From: Phototrophicus methaneseepsis
GTDB taxonomy: Bacteria; Chloroflexota; Anaerolineae; Aggregatilineales; Phototrophicaceae
Reading direction: 5' to 3'
DNA: 64,000 nt
NCBI RefSeq assembly: GCF_015500095.1
Contig: NZ_CP062983.1
Coordinates: 2,418,001-2,482,000 of the forward strand
Shown here: positions 14,692 through 24,498 of the stretch, piece after piece
Numbering within the stretch: position 1 is the first letter of the stretch
Layout: the number at the start of each line of letters is the position of its first letter
Notes under the pieces: model-generated
Told to the model about the DNA's origin: nothing
The model's input: only the letters and a program-made list of their open reading frames with translations
Database searches by the model: none
Program-made: the position numbers and the translations under genes

Positions 14692-15093
14692 ATGACACAA
14701 GAAGAATGGCCTGAGCCAGTTATGGCGCAAGAGACAGCGCCAGAGGCGGTCGAAGCAACATCTGGCCAGGCTGATCCGGCGCCGAAGCGCGGGTTTTTGC
14801 AGTGGATGGCGAACTTACTGCGCTCGAACAGCAATGTTCAAGAACAGTTCGAAGCGCTCAACGAATCCATTCAGCAGAACCCGCAAGCGCCAACGGCTTA
14901 TGTACTGCGAGGTGAATTACACCTGAAGCAAAAGCAGTATGCTTTAGCCAGGGTGGATTTTGAACGCGCTGTCGCCTTAACAGATGAACAATTTGAAGAG
15001 GCCCAGTGGGGCATCGTTGCCCAGGCCATGCGCGAACGCGCAGAGCGTGGGTTGTCACACGGGCGTGTGGCGCACCTAAATAGCGATGTGTAA
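14692..15093 (+). CDS. TPR-like small protein encoded inside the nuo cluster
   Basis: 133 residues, not a known complex I subunit. The first 35 residues are acidic and Ala/Pro-rich; the rest is helical with a TPR-like pair (APTAYVLRGELHLKQKQYAL and ARVDFERAVALTDEQFEEA). No signal peptide or membrane helix, so presumably cytoplasmic. Its ATG begins 3 nt after the nuoF stop and its stop overlaps the next short ORF, so it is surely co-transcribed and co-translated with nuoF-nuoG. By position and fold it could be an assembly or scaffold factor for the NADH-oxidising module; that is inference. Confidence 0.75.
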   Translation: MTQEEWPEPVMAQETAPEAVEATSGQADPAPKRGFLQWMANLLRSNSNVQEQFEALNESIQQNPQAPTAYVLRGELHLKQKQYALARVDFERAVALTDEQFEEAQWGIVAQAMRERAERGLSHGRVAHLNSDV

Positions 15094-15202: not shown

Positions 15203-17748
15203 CGACACCGATTTCAAAAGATACAAAACTAGTTACCATCAAAATTGATGATAAAGAGTACCAGATGCCCGCAGGGGCCAATCTGGTCGATGTGGCGAAG
15301 TGGTACGCTGATAACGATATCCCGGTGTTCTGCTATCACCCCAAGATGGAGCCCGTCGGCATGTGCCGTATGTGCGTGGTTGAACTCGGTTCAGTCATGC
15401 GGGACCGCGAGACGGGCGAGGTTGTGATGGACGACAACGGCGAGCCACAGGTTCGCTGGTTCCCCAAGTTGCAGACGGCGTGTACACAGCGTGTCAGCGA
15501 TGGCATGGTCGTCCGTACCAATTCCCATACTGTCCGTGAATCGCGCGAGCATGTGGTGGAGTTCCTCCTGACGAGCCATCCATTGGATTGCCCGATTTGT
15601 GATAAGGGTGGTGAGTGCCCGCTGCAAAACCTGACGATGGCCCATGGCCCGCAGGCCAGCCGCATGTATTACAGCGATAAAATGCATCTGGGCAAGCATC
15701 TGCCCCTTGGCGACCTGATCTATCTTGATCAGGAACGCTGCATTCAGTGTGCGCGCTGCATCCGCTTCCAGGATGAACTGGTTGGCGATGATGTGCTTGC
15801 ATTCCATGAACGTGGCCGCCGTTTGCAGATCATCACCAAGAGTGACCCCGGCTTCGATACATATTTCAGCGGCAATACCACCGATATTTGCCCGGTGGGT
15901 GCCCTGACTACAGCAGACTTCCGCTTTGGTGCGCGCCCCTGGGAACTGACGGAAATTCCGAGCATCAGCCCCTGGGATGCCGCTGGCGAGAACATCAGCC
16001 TGAGCATGCGCCTGGACCGCGATTTTGGCGGCCGTGCCATGATTAAGCGCGTGATGCCGCGTCAGAACGAATTTGTGAACGAAATTTTCATTAGCGATAA
16101 GACCCGCTTCGGTCATCACTTCACCCGCAGCGCGGATCGTGTTATGGAGCCAATGGCGCGTCAGGGCGATAGCCTGACGACGCAGAACTGGCCCGCAGCT
16201 TATCGCGAAGTTGCCGATGTGCTTAAGGCGGCGGGTGGCGATGTTGCCGCGATTGCAGGTGGTGCCGTCAGCAATGAAGATTTGTGGGAACTGCGCCAAC
16301 TCGTTGAAGGGCTTGGCGGCAGCAAACTGGGGGCCTGGCCTCCAACCCATGGCGGCGCGGATTTAGTCGCGCAGGTCGGTGTGGGGCAGGATACGAACCT
16401 CGGCGAGCTTGGTAAAGGCGATGCCATCCTGGTAATTGCTACCGATCTCGAAGAAGAAGTGCCTATGTGGCGCTTCCGTGCGAAGCGTGCCCAGGACCGC
16501 GGGGCTTACCTGGTGGTCGCTAATGCACGTGGTACTCGTATGGAAGAATTTGCCCTCCAGACAGAGCGCAACGATAAGCCTGTCGCGGGAGCATCCATTC
16601 GTTATGCACCTGGCGAAGCTGTTCAGGCGATGCTGGACCTGAAGAGCAACAACAGTGAAATCTATGATCGCCTCGTGAATGCGACCAATCTTGTCGTGAT
16701 TGCGGGCGCTGAAGGCCTTGACCTGGCAGGCAGTAAAGCCCTGATGCAGGCATGCGCGAACTTCCTGATAGATACCGGACATGTCGGTAAGGCAAATAAC
16801 GGCCTGCTTTCACCGATCCCTGGTCCGAATGGTATGGGCTTGCATTATCTCGGCTTCACACCGGAAGCAACCCAGGACATCATTGCGAACCCACCCAAGG
16901 TGCTCATCGTGGCCCAGGCGGAAGTCGCTGAAGATGACCCGATGGCTGGTGAATGGCTGAGCAAAGCAGGAACTGTTATCACGCTGAGCCTCTTCCCGGA
17001 TCGTACGACCCAGTATGCTGATTACGTCCTGCCGATCCAGAGCTTTGCAGAGCGTGATGGTACGTTCGTTAATGGTGAACGCCGCGTACAGCGCTTCTAT
17101 ACTGCGCAAGGGCCCATGGGCGAGGCAATCCCCGCCTGGAAGATCTTCACAGTTTTGGGCGAACAACTCGGCCAAAAGCGTGCCAAGCTCTCTGCCGCCG
17201 CCGTCATGCTGGATCTCACTCAGAATGTCCCGCAGTTTGCGGATATGCGCTATAAGAACCTGAGCAAAGTGGTGCGTCAGTTCCCTGATGTGGGTGGTGA
17301 TGACCTCTACTATGGCGGCACAGCCTACCAGAATAAGGGTGGTATTGGCCTCCAAATCCCGACTGAGGCGGACAGTGGTACTGTGAAGGCCGTTAAGGTC
17401 ACTGCGCCAGGGGTGGTTAGCACAAGCGCTGATGAACTCGTCATCATCCCAACCACACAACTATATGATCGTAGTAATTTGTTCATGCCCAGTGAACTGG
17501 TGCATGCCCGTGTGCCGCTTCCGTTCATTGCCCTCAGCAGCGTCGATGCGGATAGCCTTGGCATCGTTGAAGGTGATCTGGTTGAAGTGCGTTTTGCGGG
17601 TGGTAGCGTCCGTGTACGCGCATCTATTGACAGCAGCACGCCGCAGAGCGTTGCATTGCTGCCACGTCATCTGACAGATGAACCAACGCCAATGGTGCCA
17701 GGCACTGCGACGATTAGCAAAATCGCGCAGCCGGCCATGGTATCATAG
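15199..17748 (+). CDS. nuoG: NADH-quinone oxidoreductase subunit G
   Basis: Largest peripheral-arm subunit, carrying several Fe-S clusters. 849 residues. N-terminal ferredoxin-like domain (YHPKMEPVGMCRMCVVE with later Cys), the His-Cys3 region CDKGGECPLQNL, a [4Fe-4S] ferredoxin segment CIQCARCIRFQDE with downstream DICPVGAL, then a molybdopterin-oxidoreductase-like domain and a C-terminal aspartate-decarboxylase-like barrel (from about residue 735). Length is at the normal upper range. Confidence 0.96.
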   Translation: MTTPISKDTKLVTIKIDDKEYQMPAGANLVDVAKWYADNDIPVFCYHPKMEPVGMCRMCVVELGSVMRDRETGEVVMDDNGEPQVRWFPKLQTACTQRVSDGMVVRTNSHTVRESREHVVEFLLTSHPLDCPICDKGGECPLQNLTMAHGPQASRMYYSDKMHLGKHLPLGDLIYLDQERCIQCARCIRFQDELVGDDVLAFHERGRRLQIITKSDPGFDTYFSGNTTDICPVGALTTADFRFGARPWELTEIPSISPWDAAGENISLSMRLDRDFGGRAMIKRVMPRQNEFVNEIFISDKTRFGHHFTRSADRVMEPMARQGDSLTTQNWPAAYREVADVLKAAGGDVAAIAGGAVSNEDLWELRQLVEGLGGSKLGAWPPTHGGADLVAQVGVGQDTNLGELGKGDAILVIATDLEEEVPMWRFRAKRAQDRGAYLVVANARGTRMEEFALQTERNDKPVAGASIRYAPGEAVQAMLDLKSNNSEIYDRLVNATNLVVIAGAEGLDLAGSKALMQACANFLIDTGHVGKANNGLLSPIPGPNGMGLHYLGFTPEATQDIIANPPKVLIVAQAEVAEDDPMAGEWLSKAGTVITLSLFPDRTTQYADYVLPIQSFAERDGTFVNGERRVQRFYTAQGPMGEAIPAWKIFTVLGEQLGQKRAKLSAAAVMLDLTQNVPQFADMRYKNLSKVVRQFPDVGGDDLYYGGTAYQNKGGIGLQIPTEADSGTVKAVKVTAPGVVSTSADELVIIPTTQLYDRSNLFMPSELVHARVPLPFIALSSVDADSLGIVEGDLVEVRFAGGSVRVRASIDSSTPQSVALLPRHLTDEPTPMVPGTATISKIAQPAMVS

Positions 17749-17800
17749 GGCTGTTGGACGAGATGAAGCATCTTTTGCTGAGCAACTAGGTGGAGCAATA

Positions 17801-19297
17801 ATGAGAATTCCGCGTCCTGTATTGATATTAGGTGGCCTGGTGGTGGCTGTGATCGCCGTGGCTGCCCTCATCCTGGCAACCATTGGCATTGTGACGGTGA
17901 TGTTTGATCCGAATGCCATTGATCCTGCTGCGGTCGTCCAATGCAGCGAAAACGCCACTTGCGGTGTCGTATGGTCGATCGCGTTCACGCTGATCCTGGT
18001 GATTATCATCCTCACAGGCTTTGCATACACGACACTTCTTGAGCGCAAGGTCATCGCATGGTTACAGCAGCGCGTTGGGCCGAACCGTACAGGTCCGGCA
18101 GGGCTGTTACAGCCGTTGGCTGATGCCGTTAAGCTCATCTTTAAAGAAGACATCATTCCAGAAGAAGCCGACAAGCCCGTTTATTATCTGGCCCCAATCT
18201 TAAAAGTGGTGCCGGTATTGATTGTGGTCGCCGTGATTCCCTTCGGCCCGGATATTCTGATTCCCTGGTTCGATGGCAATTGGTATCAGGTGCCGCTCTC
18301 AGTTGCAGACGTCAACGTCGGCGTTTTGTACCTGCTTGGCGTAACCAGCCTTGCGACATACGGTATGGTGCTTGCTGGTTGGAGCAGTAACAACAAGTAT
18401 GCGACTCTCGGCGGCCTGCGTGCCAGCGCACAGATGATCAGCTATGAATTGAGCCTTGGCTTGGCAATGGCTGTTCCTGTTATGATCGTCGGCAGCATGA
18501 GGATTGGCGACATTGTGAACGCCCAGCCCAATGTTTGGGATTGGCTGGTCTTCCAGAATCCACTGGCGGCTGGCATTCTCGTAATTACCCTGTTTGCTGA
18601 AGTAGGCCGTGCGCCCTTCGACCTGCCGGAAGCAGAGCAGGAACTGACTGCCGGTTATATGACTGAATACAGTGGTATGAAGTTCGCCATTTTCATGATG
18701 GCGGAATACGTCGGTATGATCGCTGTGAGCATCATCTCTATTTCACTGTATTTTGGTGGTTACAACCTGTTCCCGGTTGATAACGTGCCGCTGCTTGGCC
18801 CGCTGGTGCTGATTGGCAAGGTGGTCCTGGCGTTGGCATTCTTCGTATGGGTGCGTGGTACGCTACCCCGTATTCGTTACGACCGTCTGATGGCCTTTGG
18901 CTGGAAGATCCTGCTGCCGCTTTCGCTGGTTTCTGTGGCCTGGACGGCGATTTCCGTGGTCTTGGGCGATGTCAGTGGTAACCCGGCTGTTTATGGCATC
19001 TCATCGTTGATCTTCTTCATCATCGTGGTGGCTGGTGGATATCTGTTCCTAAGTGGCAGCCAGGATGATTCTGAGATCGCCACGCCTGAAACTGACCTGA
19101 TGAATGATCCGGTCGTCACGGGTGAGCCTCGCAGCATTGGTTGGATTCTCCTGAACCTGATTGGCGGCCTGGTGGCTGTTCCTTTCCTCCTGGTAAAGGG
19201 CCTGCTTGGCGCGCTTGAAGGCCTGGGGAGTGCTGGTGCTGATACGGTGACATCAGATGAAGTCGCCATTGAGCCGGTTGAGCCTGCTGGCGATTAG
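17801..19297 (+). CDS. nuoH: NADH-quinone oxidoreductase subunit H, extended at both ends
   Basis: Membrane subunit that contacts the quinone channel. The core is typical: LLERKVIAWLQQRVGPNRTGP near residue 80, the FDLPEAEQELTAGYMTEYSG segment and the FFVWVRGTLPRIRYDRLM motif. The chain is about 499 residues instead of about 330-350: roughly 50 extra residues at the N-terminus with an additional membrane helix and two Cys (VQCSENATC), and about 110 extra at the C-terminus with one or two further hydrophobic segments and an acidic tail. ATG 17801 with AGGTGGAG upstream is the clear start; the open frame further upstream overlaps nuoG and is ignored. Confidence 0.95.
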   Translation: MRIPRPVLILGGLVVAVIAVAALILATIGIVTVMFDPNAIDPAAVVQCSENATCGVVWSIAFTLILVIIILTGFAYTTLLERKVIAWLQQRVGPNRTGPAGLLQPLADAVKLIFKEDIIPEEADKPVYYLAPILKVVPVLIVVAVIPFGPDILIPWFDGNWYQVPLSVADVNVGVLYLLGVTSLATYGMVLAGWSSNNKYATLGGLRASAQMISYELSLGLAMAVPVMIVGSMRIGDIVNAQPNVWDWLVFQNPLAAGILVITLFAEVGRAPFDLPEAEQELTAGYMTEYSGMKFAIFMMAEYVGMIAVSIISISLYFGGYNLFPVDNVPLLGPLVLIGKVVLALAFFVWVRGTLPRIRYDRLMAFGWKILLPLSLVSVAWTAISVVLGDVSGNPAVYGISSLIFFIIVVAGGYLFLSGSQDDSEIATPETDLMNDPVVTGEPRSIGWILLNLIGGLVAVPFLLVKGLLGALEGLGSAGADTVTSDEVAIEPVEPAGD

Positions 19298-19382: not shown

Positions 19383-19877
19383 ATGAATATCATCAAAGGG
19401 TTTGCGACGACCTTTAAACACGTCCTGGAAGAACCTGTCACGTTGCAATATCCGGAACAGGTTGAGCCCTTCCCGGATCGTTACAAGGGCCGTCACCATC
19501 TGCGGCGTTACGATAACGGCCTGGAAAAATGTATCGGTTGTGCGCTGTGTGCTGCCGCTTGCCCGGCTGATGCTATCTGGGTAGAAGCCGCAGAAAATAC
19601 CGATGAAGTGCGTTTTAGCCCTGGCGAACGCTATGCCAAAACGTACGAAATCAACATGTTGCGCTGCATCTTCTGTGGCTATTGCGAAGATGCTTGCCCA
19701 ACCCAGGCGATTGAATTAGGCCACGAACACCAGATGAGCTTCACGGATCGCCGTGATGCTGTTTACACCAAACAGATGCTCATCGACCCTGTGCCAGAAG
19801 GCGAGGAAGGGACCCCACGTGAAGTGGAGCCAGGTGTTTTCACGCGTTCGATTCCTGATATGCCGGACGCAAAATAA
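19383..19877 (+). CDS. nuoI: NADH-quinone oxidoreductase subunit I
   Basis: Two-[4Fe-4S] ferredoxin-type subunit that carries electrons from NuoG to NuoB. 164 residues. Both cluster motifs are complete: CIGCALCAAACPADAIW and CIFCGYCEDACPTQAIEL. Start at ATG 19383, about 8 nt after AGAGAGGTGACAAGG. Confidence 0.97.
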   Translation: MNIIKGFATTFKHVLEEPVTLQYPEQVEPFPDRYKGRHHLRRYDNGLEKCIGCALCAAACPADAIWVEAAENTDEVRFSPGERYAKTYEINMLRCIFCGYCEDACPTQAIELGHEHQMSFTDRRDAVYTKQMLIDPVPEGEEGTPREVEPGVFTRSIPDMPDAK

Positions 19878-19989: not shown

Positions 19990-21438
19990 ATGGGAGTTGA
20001 ACTCGCTTTTTTCTTAGCGATAGGCGGGCTGGCGGTGTTATGCGCCGTAGGCATGCTGCTCAGTGAAAATGCCGTGCACAGCGCGCTGTTCTTGATTGGC
20101 AATTTTGGCTGTGTCGCGCTTTTGTTCTTGATGCTGGATGCGCCGTTTATCGGTATGGTTCAAATTGTGGTATATACCGGCGCAATCATGGTGTTGTTCT
20201 TGTTCGTTATTATGCTGCTAGGCGCAGAGCAAACGACGGACACGACTCGGAGCTTCCGCTGGTTAACTGGCGCAGCGACGACACTGGCAATTGCTTTCCT
20301 TGCCGCCATTGCGATCCCGCTGGTGGTAAGTGGTGGCCTGAATCTGCCGGAAGGCCAGGCTGCAGACCCTCAGGTCCGTATTGTACATGGTGCTGACCTG
20401 GGCAATATCAATATTACGCTAGATGGAGATGCCCTCGAGGAACCCATCGTCCTGGAAGATGTGGCATTTGGCGAAGTCAGCGACTTTATGCAAGTCCCTG
20501 CTGGCGAATATTCAGTGTCGCTGGCACAAGCTGATACAGGGTCTCCGCTGATGCCGCCTTCACAAAGCCCGACGATTACGTTGGAGCCTGGGCAAGTCGT
20601 GAGTGCGTTGGCCTATGGTACGCTCAGCACGGAAACAGGCACTTTCCCTGAGGTTGTGCTGGTGCCAAACGAATTTGGCAATACGCCCGATGATGAAGGC
20701 CGTATTGTCGCTGTCAACGTCTACGATACAGATCGCACTTTCGCGCTTGTAGACCTGGGTGCTGATCAGCGTGTGACTGTTGTCGAGCGTGATGTCCGTG
20801 ATGAAGACGGTAATGTCGTTTATCAGGCGCGTGCTACGGAAGACGCCCCGCTGGTTGCACAGCGTGAAGTCGTGCTTGCAGATCCGGTCATTGTTGCTGA
20901 CTTGGCCTATGGTCAGCCGGTTGTCGCGACATATCCAGAAGGCGAAGATTATGATCTGGCCCTGATTGATATGACCAACTTCGACAGCTACATTGAGACG
21001 GCGGACCAGCAAGGCAGTGCGCAGAACGCTATCGTGATGCGCATGAACGAGTATGAAATTGAAACGGCTGCTGAAGAGACTTTCGTGATTGCCAAAGAGC
21101 CGACAACGCTTGATGAAGCTGAACCACGCCCAACAGTCCTGGATCGTGAAGCTTTGTTGATCGGGACGCTGGCGGGCTTTGGTACACCGCTTGCCATCGG
21201 GCAGATTCTGTTCACAGATTTCTTACTGCCCGTGAATATGGTGGGTTTCTTGCTGCTCATCGCACTGGTTGGTGTGATTGTGCTGTCGCGTCCGGCAGGC
21301 CTTTCGCCAGCACAAAAGCGGCGTCGTGATACTCGGCGGAAAGTAAGCCGTCCGTTGGTCAGCGTCATTACGCAGCAGACAGGCAGCGATCTCATAGTGG
21401 AAACGCCGCGTCTGGAACAGCCAGATTCAGGCGAGTAG
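19990..21438 (+). CDS. nuoJ: NADH-quinone oxidoreductase subunit J with a large DUF4397-like insert
   Basis: Proton-pumping-arm subunit, but 482 residues instead of about 165-200. Residues 1-113 carry the usual first four membrane helices, including the conserved QIVVYTGAIMVLFLFVIML. Residues about 387-433 give the last helix (ILFTDFLLPVNMVGFLLLI), followed by a basic tail. Between helices four and five sits an insert of about 268 residues (nt about 20332-21135). Its first part (RIVHGADLGNINITLDG, then VAFGEVSDFMQVPAGEYSVSL and TLEPGQVVSALAYG) matches the pattern of DUF4397, a beta-sandwich domain usually found on secreted proteins; the second part is also beta-rich. Arg in the loop before helix four and a basic tail after helix five place the insert outside the cytoplasm. 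Confidence 0.93.
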   Translation: MGVELAFFLAIGGLAVLCAVGMLLSENAVHSALFLIGNFGCVALLFLMLDAPFIGMVQIVVYTGAIMVLFLFVIMLLGAEQTTDTTRSFRWLTGAATTLAIAFLAAIAIPLVVSGGLNLPEGQAADPQVRIVHGADLGNINITLDGDALEEPIVLEDVAFGEVSDFMQVPAGEYSVSLAQADTGSPLMPPSQSPTITLEPGQVVSALAYGTLSTETGTFPEVVLVPNEFGNTPDDEGRIVAVNVYDTDRTFALVDLGADQRVTVVERDVRDEDGNVVYQARATEDAPLVAQREVVLADPVIVADLAYGQPVVATYPEGEDYDLALIDMTNFDSYIETADQQGSAQNAIVMRMNEYEIETAAEETFVIAKEPTTLDEAEPRPTVLDREALLIGTLAGFGTPLAIGQILFTDFLLPVNMVGFLLLIALVGVIVLSRPAGLSPAQKRRRDTRRKVSRPLVSVITQQTGSDLIVETPRLEQPDSGE

Positions 21439-21475: not shown

Positions 21476-21787
21476 ATGGAATTTGCAGTACCGACAGAAT
21501 TTTTCTTCGTCCTCAGCCTGATTTTATTCACGCTGGGTGCGTTGGGTGTGCTGCTGCGTAAGAATGCGATCCTGGTGTTTATGTCGGTCGAGCTGATGCT
21601 GAACTCGGCCAATCTGGCACTGGTCGCCTTTGCAAGGCAGTGGGGCAGCCAGGAAGGGCACATCTTCGTGTTCTTCGTTATGACAGTCGCGGCGGCTGAA
21701 GTTGCGGTTGGTCTGGCGTTGATTGTCGCCATCTTCCGCAGCAAGCAGAGCATCAATATTGACGATTTGCACCAAATGGAAGGGTAG
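21476..21787 (+). CDS. nuoK: NADH-quinone oxidoreductase subunit K
   Basis: Small membrane subunit next to NuoJ. 103 residues, normal length, three helices, with the family signature MSVELMLNSANLALVAF carrying a conserved membrane Glu, and a second Glu in AAAEVAVGLAL. AAGGAG precedes the start. It shows none of the insertions seen in NuoJ and NuoL. Confidence 0.97.
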   Translation: MEFAVPTEFFFVLSLILFTLGALGVLLRKNAILVFMSVELMLNSANLALVAFARQWGSQEGHIFVFFVMTVAAAEVAVGLALIVAIFRSKQSINIDDLHQMEG

Positions 21788-21840: not shown

Positions 21841-24498
21841 ATGCACATGGATTCTTATGCAAACCTGATCCCCCTGGTAATCCTCGTCCCGGCTATCGGG
21901 GCTTTGATTAACCTGTTTTTGGGGCACAAACTAGGTGAGCGATTATCAGGCCTCGTCGGCGTGACGGCGTCGGTTCTGGCGTTCATCTTCTCGGTATTGA
22001 TCTTTGCCTACCTCAGCGACCCCGCTGTGGTGACAGGCATTGTGATCGATCCACCCCTGCTCGATGGCTGGATACGTATCGGCAGCGATGCAGGCTTTAG
22101 TGTGAATATCCCCTGGCAGTTCCGCGTAGATACCATTACAGCGGTTATGCTGCTGGTTGTCACCGGTGTAGGTAGCCTGATTCATATTTACTCAATTGGC
22201 TATATGCACGGCGATCCAAAGTACGCTCGCTTCTTCGCTTTCCTGAACATGTTCATGATGTTCATGTTGATCCTCGTGACGGGCAACAACTTCCTGATGA
22301 TGTTCGTCGGTTGGGAAGGCGTCGGCGTGATGTCTTACTTACTCATCGGCTTCTGGTGGGATAAATCAGCGCCTGTGGGCTGGCGTAATAGTGATGCTGC
22401 CCGTAAGGCCATGATTGCCAACCGTGTCGGTGACTTCGGCATCATTATGGCGACGATCTTGATCTTCTGGACGTTCGGCACGGTCAATTACTACAGCCCT
22501 GGCGAAGTCGCCAATTCTTGCTACGTTCTGGAACATGCTGAATCAATCAGCGCGGAACAGGCGGAACATGGCGAGTGTGACGCTGAAGCTGTCGAAGCTT
22601 TTGCTACGGGTGCTGTTGGTGAGCACGAAGAAGGCGAAGCCGAAGGCTCTGAAGAAGCGACAGAAGAGTCGTCAGAAGTTGAAGGCGAAGCCAATGCGGG
22701 CATTGTCTTAGTTCAGGAAACAGAGACAGAAGGCGAGCACGCCGAAGAAGCCGAAGCTGAAGGTGAACACGGCGAAGAAGCGGCACATGGTGCCCATATG
22801 TCTGTCGAAGACATGACCAACGCCAACTTCATGCCGGATCAGATGGGCGTCTTTGCTCAACTGGATGCGCTTGTGAATCTGGACGAAGGCGAAACCATCC
22901 CCTGGGCTGTTAGCCCCGATGGCACCGTCATCGAACGGGGCCGCGAAGTTCAGTTCGGCCCATACAGCGCTGATATTAGCGTCGTGCTGTTCCTGATTAT
23001 TGTCTTTATCGTGCTGGGTGTGAGTGGTAAATCAGCTCAGATTCCGTTGTTCGTCTGGCTGCCAGACGCGATGGCTGGCCCAACGCCTGTTAGTGCGTTG
23101 ATGCATGCTGCGACGATGGTGACCGCAGGTGTTTACTTGCTGGTTCGTTCCAACGTCTTTATCACCTACTCGCCAGAAGGCCGCTTGCTAATTGCCATCA
23201 TCGGTACAGCGACGGCACTTGTCGCGGGTTTGACGGCTGTAGGCCAGTGGGATATTAAGCGCGTTCTGGCTTTCTCCACAGTGTCCCAGCTTGGCTTTAT
23301 GGTGGCTGCGATTGGCGTAGGCGCTTATGTCGCTGCGATCTTCCATCTCGTCACGCACGCGGTATTCAAAGCGCTGCTCTTCCTGGGCAGTGGTTCTGTG
23401 ATTCACGGCGTTGAACATGGTGAGCACCACGTGCATGAACTCCATGCTCATGATCATCACGGTGATCATCATGACGACCACGGCGAGCCTTTCGACCCAC
23501 AGGATATGCGTAACATGGGTGGTTTGCGCGCTCGTATGCCGATCACATTTGTCACTTACCTGATTGGTACATTCGCCCTCTCTGGCTTGCCGATCTTTGC
23601 AGGCTTCTGGTCCAAGGATGAAATCTTGCTGGATGCGCTCGTCCATGGTGGCGAAAGCACGAATGTGCTCGACCAGCTTTCTGGTTTCATCGTCTTCTTT
23701 GGCCTATTGGTCGCTGCTGGCTTTACAGCCTTCTATATGTGGCGACAGATTCAGATGGTCTTCTTTGGCGAACCGCGCAGCGAAGCTGCCCGTCACGCGC
23801 CGGAGAGTGTACCTTCAATGACGATCCCGCTCATCGTCCTGGCGATTGGTGCAACCTTCATTGGTTTGATCAACGTGCCGGGTGGTGCATGGCCCTTCAC
23901 CCTGTTCTATAAGCTGCACGAGTTCGGCCACTTCTTAGAAGCAAGCATCCCGTCGATTACGACTGGCCATACGCTGGACTTTAACTGGCTGCTGGCAGGG
24001 CTTGCGACGGCGGTTGCGTTTGGTGCTATCTTCCTGGCACACTCGATTTACGCAGGCAATAAGGCTGTACGCGGTGAACATGGCGCAGTCGATGGCCGTG
24101 ACCCGCTGCAAGATAACGGTTCAACATCGCAGATCTTCACGGCAGCGAATCGCCGCCTTTACTGGGACGATTTTTACTTCGCCGTCTTTATCCGGCCTTA
24201 TCAACGTATCGCCGCTTTCTTTGCGGATGTCATTGACTGGAACTTCTGGCACGATTACGTCCACGATAAGGTCATCAAACGCGGCTACGATACGATTTCC
24301 CAGCTTCTGGCGAATCCGCTGGATATTGGCCTGATTGACGGGGCTGTCAATGGTGTTGGCCGTCTTGTGTCGTACTTGAGTGGGCGCTTCCGCACAGCGC
24401 AGACAGGTTACGTGCGGACGTATGCGGTTGTACTTTTACTTGGTGTGGTAGCGGTGATTGTGCTGATGGTACTACCGCTGATTCCGATTGGCTCATAA
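21841..24498 (+). CDS. nuoL: NADH-quinone oxidoreductase subunit L with acidic insert and His-rich loop
   Basis: Distal antiporter-like subunit with the lateral helix. 885 residues instead of about 610-680. Core motifs: EGVGVMSYLLIGFWW, GKSAQIPLFVWLPDAMAGPT, HAATMVTAGVYLLVRS, THAVFKALLFLGSGSVIH and GFWSKDEIL. Two extra parts: residues about 222-374 (nt about 22504-22962), a Glu/Ala/Gly/His-rich insert before the GKSAQIPL helix; and residues about 522-548 (nt about 23404-23484), a loop with 12 His in 27 residues plus Asp, replacing the short loop before DMRNMGGL. Downstream the chain has the usual final helices. Counting helices suggests the acidic insert is extracytoplasmic and the His loop cytoplasmic, which is uncertain. 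Confidence 0.95.
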   Translation: MHMDSYANLIPLVILVPAIGALINLFLGHKLGERLSGLVGVTASVLAFIFSVLIFAYLSDPAVVTGIVIDPPLLDGWIRIGSDAGFSVNIPWQFRVDTITAVMLLVVTGVGSLIHIYSIGYMHGDPKYARFFAFLNMFMMFMLILVTGNNFLMMFVGWEGVGVMSYLLIGFWWDKSAPVGWRNSDAARKAMIANRVGDFGIIMATILIFWTFGTVNYYSPGEVANSCYVLEHAESISAEQAEHGECDAEAVEAFATGAVGEHEEGEAEGSEEATEESSEVEGEANAGIVLVQETETEGEHAEEAEAEGEHGEEAAHGAHMSVEDMTNANFMPDQMGVFAQLDALVNLDEGETIPWAVSPDGTVIERGREVQFGPYSADISVVLFLIIVFIVLGVSGKSAQIPLFVWLPDAMAGPTPVSALMHAATMVTAGVYLLVRSNVFITYSPEGRLLIAIIGTATALVAGLTAVGQWDIKRVLAFSTVSQLGFMVAAIGVGAYVAAIFHLVTHAVFKALLFLGSGSVIHGVEHGEHHVHELHAHDHHGDHHDDHGEPFDPQDMRNMGGLRARMPITFVTYLIGTFALSGLPIFAGFWSKDEILLDALVHGGESTNVLDQLSGFIVFFGLLVAAGFTAFYMWRQIQMVFFGEPRSEAARHAPESVPSMTIPLIVLAIGATFIGLINVPGGAWPFTLFYKLHEFGHFLEASIPSITTGHTLDFNWLLAGLATAVAFGAIFLAHSIYAGNKAVRGEHGAVDGRDPLQDNGSTSQIFTAANRRLYWDDFYFAVFIRPYQRIAAFFADVIDWNFWHDYVHDKVIKRGYDTISQLLANPLDIGLIDGAVNGVGRLVSYLSGRFRTAQTGYVRTYAVVLLLGVVAVIVLMVLPLIPIGS

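Follow-up and report, generated by a model that had tools for sequence, protein, structure and literature searches.

An inserted pair of DUF4397-type domains, predicted to face outward, in the complex I subunit NuoJ of one order of Chloroflexota

The nuoJ gene and the domains within it

The window, by which we mean the whole stretch of 64,000 nucleotides that was analysed, comes from a member of the Chloroflexota (Phototrophicales) whose genome is a single contig of 5,631,885 bases. It carries nuoJ, the gene for complex I subunit J, as one uninterrupted open frame of 482 aa running from ATG to TAG on the + strand (19990..21438; G000:C1:2437990-2439435, 100% identity). Upstream lies nuoI (19383..19877, +), assigned by its position and by two CxxCxxCxxxCP motifs read by eye, and downstream lies nuoK (21476..21787, +; 103 aa, Oxidored_q2 6.1e-29). 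The identity of the subunit follows from its five helices, from the gene context nuoI-J-K-L and from the Pfam family Oxidored_q3 (PF00499, complex I chain 6), which matched at 8.3e-35 and 120.1 bits against a cut-off of 33.2 and was scored as two separate stretches. Against the NCBIfam NuoJ equivalog the best score was 116.1 bits for a cut-off of 192, and no listed NuoJ model reached its own cut-off; the whole-protein threshold is missed while the Pfam threshold is passed because the insert splits the score of the helices into two stretches.

Helices 1-4 occupy residues 1-113 (19990..20328, +), where the AlphaFold2 model places them at 2-24, 28-48, 52-80 and 90-113, and they can be aligned with E. 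coli NuoJ (3rko_F). The helix 3 residues Y62, G64 and V68 are invariant across the 32 sequences of alignment A2, which comprises the window protein, all 14 long NuoJ proteins found in named genomes and 17 of the 66 shorter ones. Beyond the insert, a juxtamembrane FG(S/T)P segment and helix 5 span residues about 389-432 (21154..21285, +), as indicated by the Oxidored_q3 stretches, by the model, with helices at 400-410 and 412-432 on the C-terminal side, and by the solved NuoJ homologue 6hum_G, whose two matching segments, residues 7-106 and 402-435, correspond to the helices flanking the insert. Hydrophobic windows agree with the model in placing helices before the insert and one after it. The frame closes with a basic C-terminal tail, delimited from alignments (21298..21435, +), which reads RRKVSRPLxSVIxxQTGxD or similar in many sequences of family f1 and is probably cytoplasmic.

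Between helices 4 and 5 lie about 275 additional residues. The original prediction, made from the DNA letters, had placed a DUF4397-like domain there, and both the domain and its position were borne out: DUF4397 (PF14344) matched residues 128-244 of the whole protein at 2.8e-12 and 47.7 bits against a Pfam cut-off of 30.6, and at 5.1e-13 when the insert alone (20332-21135) was the query, and the modelled helices, the two Oxidored_q3 stretches and the 6hum_G match all flank it. The insert does lie where it was first placed, 20332-21135, and runs slightly past that end, to about residue 393. Its first part was correctly read as DUF4397, and the remainder, taken to be loop filling, turned out to be a second domain of the same kind. 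The first beta-sandwich domain covers residues about 122-232 (20353..20685, +; PF14344 47.7 bits, pLDDT 94-98 over 131-220), and the second, delimited by hhalign and the models, covers residues about 233-388 (20686..21153, +). When first-domain and second-domain alignments (A3 and A4; like A5, each made of the window protein and the 14 long NuoJ proteins) were compared by hhalign across the 15 proteins, they matched with a probability of 92.3%, E 5.4e-7, over 53 columns. Pfam gave no match on the second half of the window NuoJ, and among ten of the 15 second halves that were scanned against DUF4397, the window included, two matched at E <= 1, the best with 30.1 bits for a cut-off of 30.6. Profile comparison and predicted structure thus support a diverged DUF4397 copy, which we name DUF4397-like only, since the name rests on the A3/A4 comparison and the domain profiles and the Pfam cut-off is not reached.

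Structure was modelled for NuoJ or the insert as a single chain. The NuoJ model, built from a 32-sequence alignment, has a mean pLDDT of 78.3, with 94-98 over residues 131-220, 82-95 over 301-390 and 47-73 over 261-300, the last being a poorly predicted loop in the second domain; the insert folded alone from 15 sequences reached a pLDDT of 83.4. Superposed on E. coli NuoJ, the model aligns from residue 4 to 445 over 120 residues with an rmsd of 4.3. Published topology work describes E. coli NuoJ as a five-helix, N-out protein (PMC4604451), an arrangement in which the loop between helices 4 and 5 faces outward; by homology the insert should therefore lie outside the cytoplasm, as originally proposed, and the basic tail after helix 5 agrees with this orientation.

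In alignment A1, which holds the window protein and 24 relatives (25 of the 30 extracted proteins), insert residues R130 and G172 are invariant and G210, R238, N243 and D255 are conserved at 90% or more; judged by eye, these fit repeated signature positions of the family, with no set suggestive of catalysis among them. All 30 inserts examined have a net excess of acidic over basic residues, between 3.7 and 15.0 per 100, a property that might be expected if the insert served as an antenna for protons or cations where the pump opens to the outside. Such a role is nevertheless highly improbable: the secreted-looking DUF4397 domains encoded here and in related genomes show comparable acidity (0 to 21 per 100, over 35 stretches in 14 open frames), so that the trait was probably inherited, and the NuoJ loop is not known to be a proton exit.

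Other features of the cluster were recorded in passing. NuoL (21841-24498, 885 aa) contains an acidic, histidine-containing insert at about residues 220-336 (35 D/E, no K/R, 7 H) plus 348-378, which is missing from at least three of four shorter Chloroflexota NuoL proteins. NuoH (17678-19297, 539 aa as called, with an uncertain start codon) has an extra hydrophobic N-terminal segment followed by a two-cysteine stretch, as well as a C-terminal extension, and its length across loci of the order lies between 342 and 588 aa. A connection between these extensions and the NuoJ insert was considered and dropped, because a long NuoL occurs in genomes of the order whether or not their NuoJ has the insert, and NuoH is variable. 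A small TPR-like protein of 133 aa (14692-15093) lies between nuoF and nuoG, all its TPR matches falling below the cut-offs. Elsewhere in the genome, a second cluster (L069 1258-9639, within G000:C1:4586000-4602000) holds membrane-arm genes for NuoA, H, J, K, L, M and N by similarity, and its NuoJ is a copy of 178 aa without the insert.

Distribution and history of the insert

To determine how widely the insert occurs, 154 genomes of the order were surveyed with the NuoJ profile A1 at E <= 1e-20, and 146 gave a match. One of these (G462) was discarded as NuoJ, its match being DUF4397 in another protein, and of the remaining 145 genomes 135 carry the insert, a count derived from how much of the A1 model each match spans and from the open frames, with part of the sequences read. 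By family, the insert is present in 93/93 genomes of f1, 17/18 of f3, 5/5 of f4, 10/10 of f7 and 10/10 of f8, that is, in 135 of the 136 NuoJ genes of these five families. The ten genes without it, all of which were read, belong to three outlying families (f2, 6/6; f5, 1/1; f6, 2/2) and to a single member of f3, G439. Four of the 135 genes are truncated at contig ends (G056, G058, G446, G448), and part of the insert was recognised in all four; G447 was listed as two pieces and proved to be a single frame that includes the insert, and G060, counted as lacking it, stops at a contig end within helix 5. The eight genomes of the order with no A1 match belong to f1 (four), f2 (three) and f7 (one), and completeness is below 85% in three of them.

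Beyond the order, 230 of 396 genomes of the class matched, and the matches listed for them include no DUF4397 insert; nor did any occur in the phylum set of 400 genomes, of which 84 matched at E <= 1e-30 (82 from outside the order). The class and phylum sets overlap in part. Two apparently long NuoJ proteins outside the order, G096 (736 codons) and G071 (340), owe their length to an upstream open frame and not to an insert. Among the best 80 loci of named genomes, 14 encode a long NuoJ (399-459 aa as called), all titled Chloroflexota/Chloroflexi, Anaerolineae or Anaerolineaceae; in the other 66, NuoJ ranges from 121 aa (cut) to 315 aa, six exceeding 250. The presence of the insert in related genomes, by which the original prediction was to be checked, was confirmed in 135 genomes of the order. 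An assembly error or a join of two separate genes, which it had also raised, was rejected along with chance: all 25 members of A1 match both Oxidored_q3 and DUF4397 at E <= 0.01, the insert recurs across the order, and the host genome is a single contig. Literature on DUF4397, on NuoJ and on complex I insertions or periplasmic parts yielded no NuoJ insert in a search that took in few subscription journals and preprints, and DUF4397 and NuoJ occurred together in none of the papers listed.

A second case is f125, a Chloroflexota family outside the class of the host. Its NuoJ (G734 and G770; L206 1097-2089 and L207) carries about 110 other residues, placed by eye in the helix 4-5 loop, which give no DUF4397 match and match PF07194 weakly, at 24.8 bits alone against a cut-off of 23 and at 21.7 bits in the whole protein. 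The same loop has therefore taken up unrelated-looking inserts at least twice.

To trace the history of the insert, a quick maximum-likelihood tree was computed from the helices of subunit J, without the insert, together with complex I subunits H, I, K, L and M. The tree was built from 41 chosen loci, of which L171 was dropped with less than 10% of its columns filled, leaving 40 rows. All 23 inserted rows and G439 fall into a single clade (SH-aLRT 100); f5/f6 branch outside it, followed by f2. Two changes suffice to explain the presence of the insert, and the well-supported branches force two, so that the computation supports one gain and one loss, the latter in G439. There, NuoJ is 202 aa long and reads through with about 25 loop residues, the helices are kept, and the juxtamembrane FGSP segment and the tail are as in relatives; the loss is provisional, because the genome is in about 630 contigs with 5% contamination.

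A likely source is found among the secreted-looking DUF4397 proteins. The first domain of the NuoJ insert lies above the Pfam cut-off for this family, and these proteins have the tandem arrangement and, with a reservation given below, the domain order of the NuoJ pair; those of the host genome that were read differ in their signal-like N-termini (five, by eye), the NuoJ pair being located inside an integral membrane subunit. In all eight two-domain proteins of this kind from this and related genomes, the domain-1 profile of the NuoJ insert scored higher on the first domain, and the domain-2 profile scored higher on the second domain in all six proteins that it matched. This domain-by-domain correspondence is weakened by four secreted-looking proteins in which the second domain scores slightly better against the domain-1 profile (22-24 bits) than against its domain-2 counterpart (20-21 bits), as in L060 (24.1 vs 20.9 bits), and longer repeats show no clear pairing. 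The probable donor of the pair, transferred as a whole, is thus a secreted tandem DUF4397 protein, a duplication after entry into NuoJ being a less probable alternative. The host genome itself encodes multi-DUF4397 secreted-looking proteins (G000:C1:3313148-3317610, 728559, 234035 and 2335967), some with fasciclin-like regions recognised by eye.

Once acquired, the insert diverged rapidly. In a comparison of the window with its congener L011, identity is 71% in the insert, with pN 0.18 and pS 0.77, and 90% in helices 1-4, with pN 0.06 and pS 0.63; we quote pN and pS and no dN/dS because synonymous sites in the insert are saturated. Across 14 relatives, identity to the window insert falls to 19-32%. 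Such drift, the one clean absence in G439 and the unrelated-looking f125 insert, which suggests a permissive site, are what would be expected of a passenger that entered by chance, is harmless in the loop and is kept by inertia. The presence of the insert in all but one of the 136 genes of five families, and a pN well below pS within it, make this an unlikely explanation.

Fold relatives and a possible docking role

Among solved structures, the best matches to the whole NuoJ model, the first seven rows, are the extracellular domains (ECD) of the peptide transporters PepT1 and PepT2 (Z 13.9-15.1, 180-188 residues, rmsd 2.9-3.1), and the insert folded alone returned seven PepT rows as well (Z 13.6-14.5). 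The next match, HGSNAT, concerns the second domain (Z about 11), and below it stand many beta-sandwiches with Z near 7, including AlgF, whose two domains matched the insert at Z 7.3 and 6.9. Foldseek also ranked PepT entries first, with modest TM-scores of 0.57-0.66 by PepT2 ECD length and rmsd values of 5-8, and the crystal of the isolated PepT1 ECD (5a9d) gave a one-domain alignment only (Z 9.4). When the insert profile was searched against 177,635 PDB sequences, the PepT1 ECD came first (E 0.0059; 0.043 for the best stretch alone) and AlgF second (0.02), all of these values being marginal, though consistent with the structural ranking. Absence from the structure match lists was not counted as evidence.

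A fold in common shows no function, and beta-sandwiches bind sugars and sterols too. The insert domains might accordingly bind polysaccharide or a surface layer directly and anchor the complex to the cell wall, in keeping with single-domain likeness to pullulanase CBM41 and to a rhamnogalacturonan lyase domain (Z about 7) and with the secreted-looking, partly fasciclin-like DUF4397 proteins of the genome. We consider this quite improbable: a Z of about 7 is typical of a widespread arrangement, the PepT matches score twice as high, and isolated AlgF, which has similar domains, reportedly showed no alginate binding (PMC10641220).

Starting from the insert, its predicted two-domain fold, its side of the membrane and its single gain and loss, all obtained by computation, we infer a source protein, a docking role and a partner. 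A common ancestor of five families of the order would have taken over the domain pair as a unit from a secreted protein; seated in the outer helix 4-5 loop, the pair would act as an extracytoplasmic docking module that tethers complex I to a partner protein beyond the membrane or recruits such a partner. Candidate partners would be a surface-layer protein, a secreted protein or another respiratory complex, and the insert itself would take no part in proton pumping. To this reading we assign a probability of roughly 0.5. By analogy with PepT, the pair is best read as an outer docking platform attached to a membrane subunit, and of the three functions first suggested for the insert (anchoring a partner, shielding the subunit, contacting the cell wall), partner anchoring fits best with the PepT ECD and AlgF.

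The facts counted in favour of docking are the PepT-type fold, the marginal profile hits to the PepT1 ECD and AlgF, the known or proposed roles of these relatives, the profile scores on the secreted-looking proteins, the conservation in 135 of 136 genes, the excess of pS over pN, the retention of helix 3 and the existence of a second NuoJ without insert in the same genome. Those counted against it are the fast drift, the absence in G439, the modest Foldseek scores, the one-domain match to 5a9d and the imperfect domain-by-domain match to the secreted-looking proteins. The drift disfavours a strictly conserved binding site. The PepT work reports that deletion of the ECD from PepT2 left KM unchanged and that in PepT1 no ECD change was tolerated for stable expression, changes lowering expression (PMC4597091); a module of this kind need not, therefore, be freely removable.

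The main rival is a structural or regulatory role, because the insert follows helix 4, whose relocation marks the deactive state: in the mammalian enzyme, according to a complex I study, ND6 TM4 relocates on deactivation (PMC10212512). The insert would then be an outer clamp, packed on the outer ends of NuoJ, NuoK, NuoA or NuoN and stabilising the joint, notably helix 4, and a rigid outer handle could block or tune the relocation of that helix. Its modelled position directly after helix 4 and its retention across five families are consistent with a clamp; the fast drift points away from it, as do the clean absence in G439, where the helices are intact, and the docking roles known or proposed for the nearest fold relatives, and we regard it as possible, if doubtful. 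A rather unlikely extension of docking would make the insert an outside-facing receptor, in which a partner bound to the domain pair links the respiratory chain with the cell surface or with another respiratory complex and, through NuoJ helix 4, can switch the enzyme from outside between its active and resting states. If this were true, two independent inserts would mark the loop as a favoured control site.

Comparison with known systems

Some bacteria have a few accessory subunits in complex I. The bacterial enzyme is described as having fourteen core subunits, to which eukaryotes add a shell of accessory subunits (PMC10212512). In the present order, which has a cultured member, a core membrane subunit has its own predicted outer domain pair across five families. 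This provides a natural test of the effect of an outer-side addition on complex I, and of whether NuoJ/ND6 helix 4 can be handled from outside. The host subunit shares with canonical NuoJ/ND6/Nqo10 the five helices, the conserved helix 3 and the gene order I-J-K-L-M-N, and differs in the helix 4-5 loop, which is short in the canonical proteins; the f125 NuoJ has an addition in the same loop that looks unrelated.

The AlgF protein of Pseudomonas aeruginosa resembles the insert in having two beta-sandwich domains, which its authors likened to the PepT2 ECD, and differs in being a separate periplasmic protein of alginate acetylation. The same authors proposed a role in protein interaction (PMC10641220).

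The closest likeness is to PepT1 and PepT2 (SLC15A1/A2), whose ECD consists of two immunoglobulin-like domains and binds trypsin (PMC4597091; also PMC8565842). In both cases, with the insert known from predicted models, tandem immunoglobulin-like beta-sandwiches are located in an outer loop of a multi-helix transport protein. The host protein is different, PepT being an MFS peptide transporter of mammals with the domains between TM9 and TM10, identity in the two-domain rows is 9-14%, and the insert has extra loops; the likeness is one of predicted structure, the two may work alike, and no membership is claimed. As modelled, NuoJ of this order would stand beside PepT and AlgF as another, bacterial, membrane protein with a tandem beta-sandwich module of the docking type.
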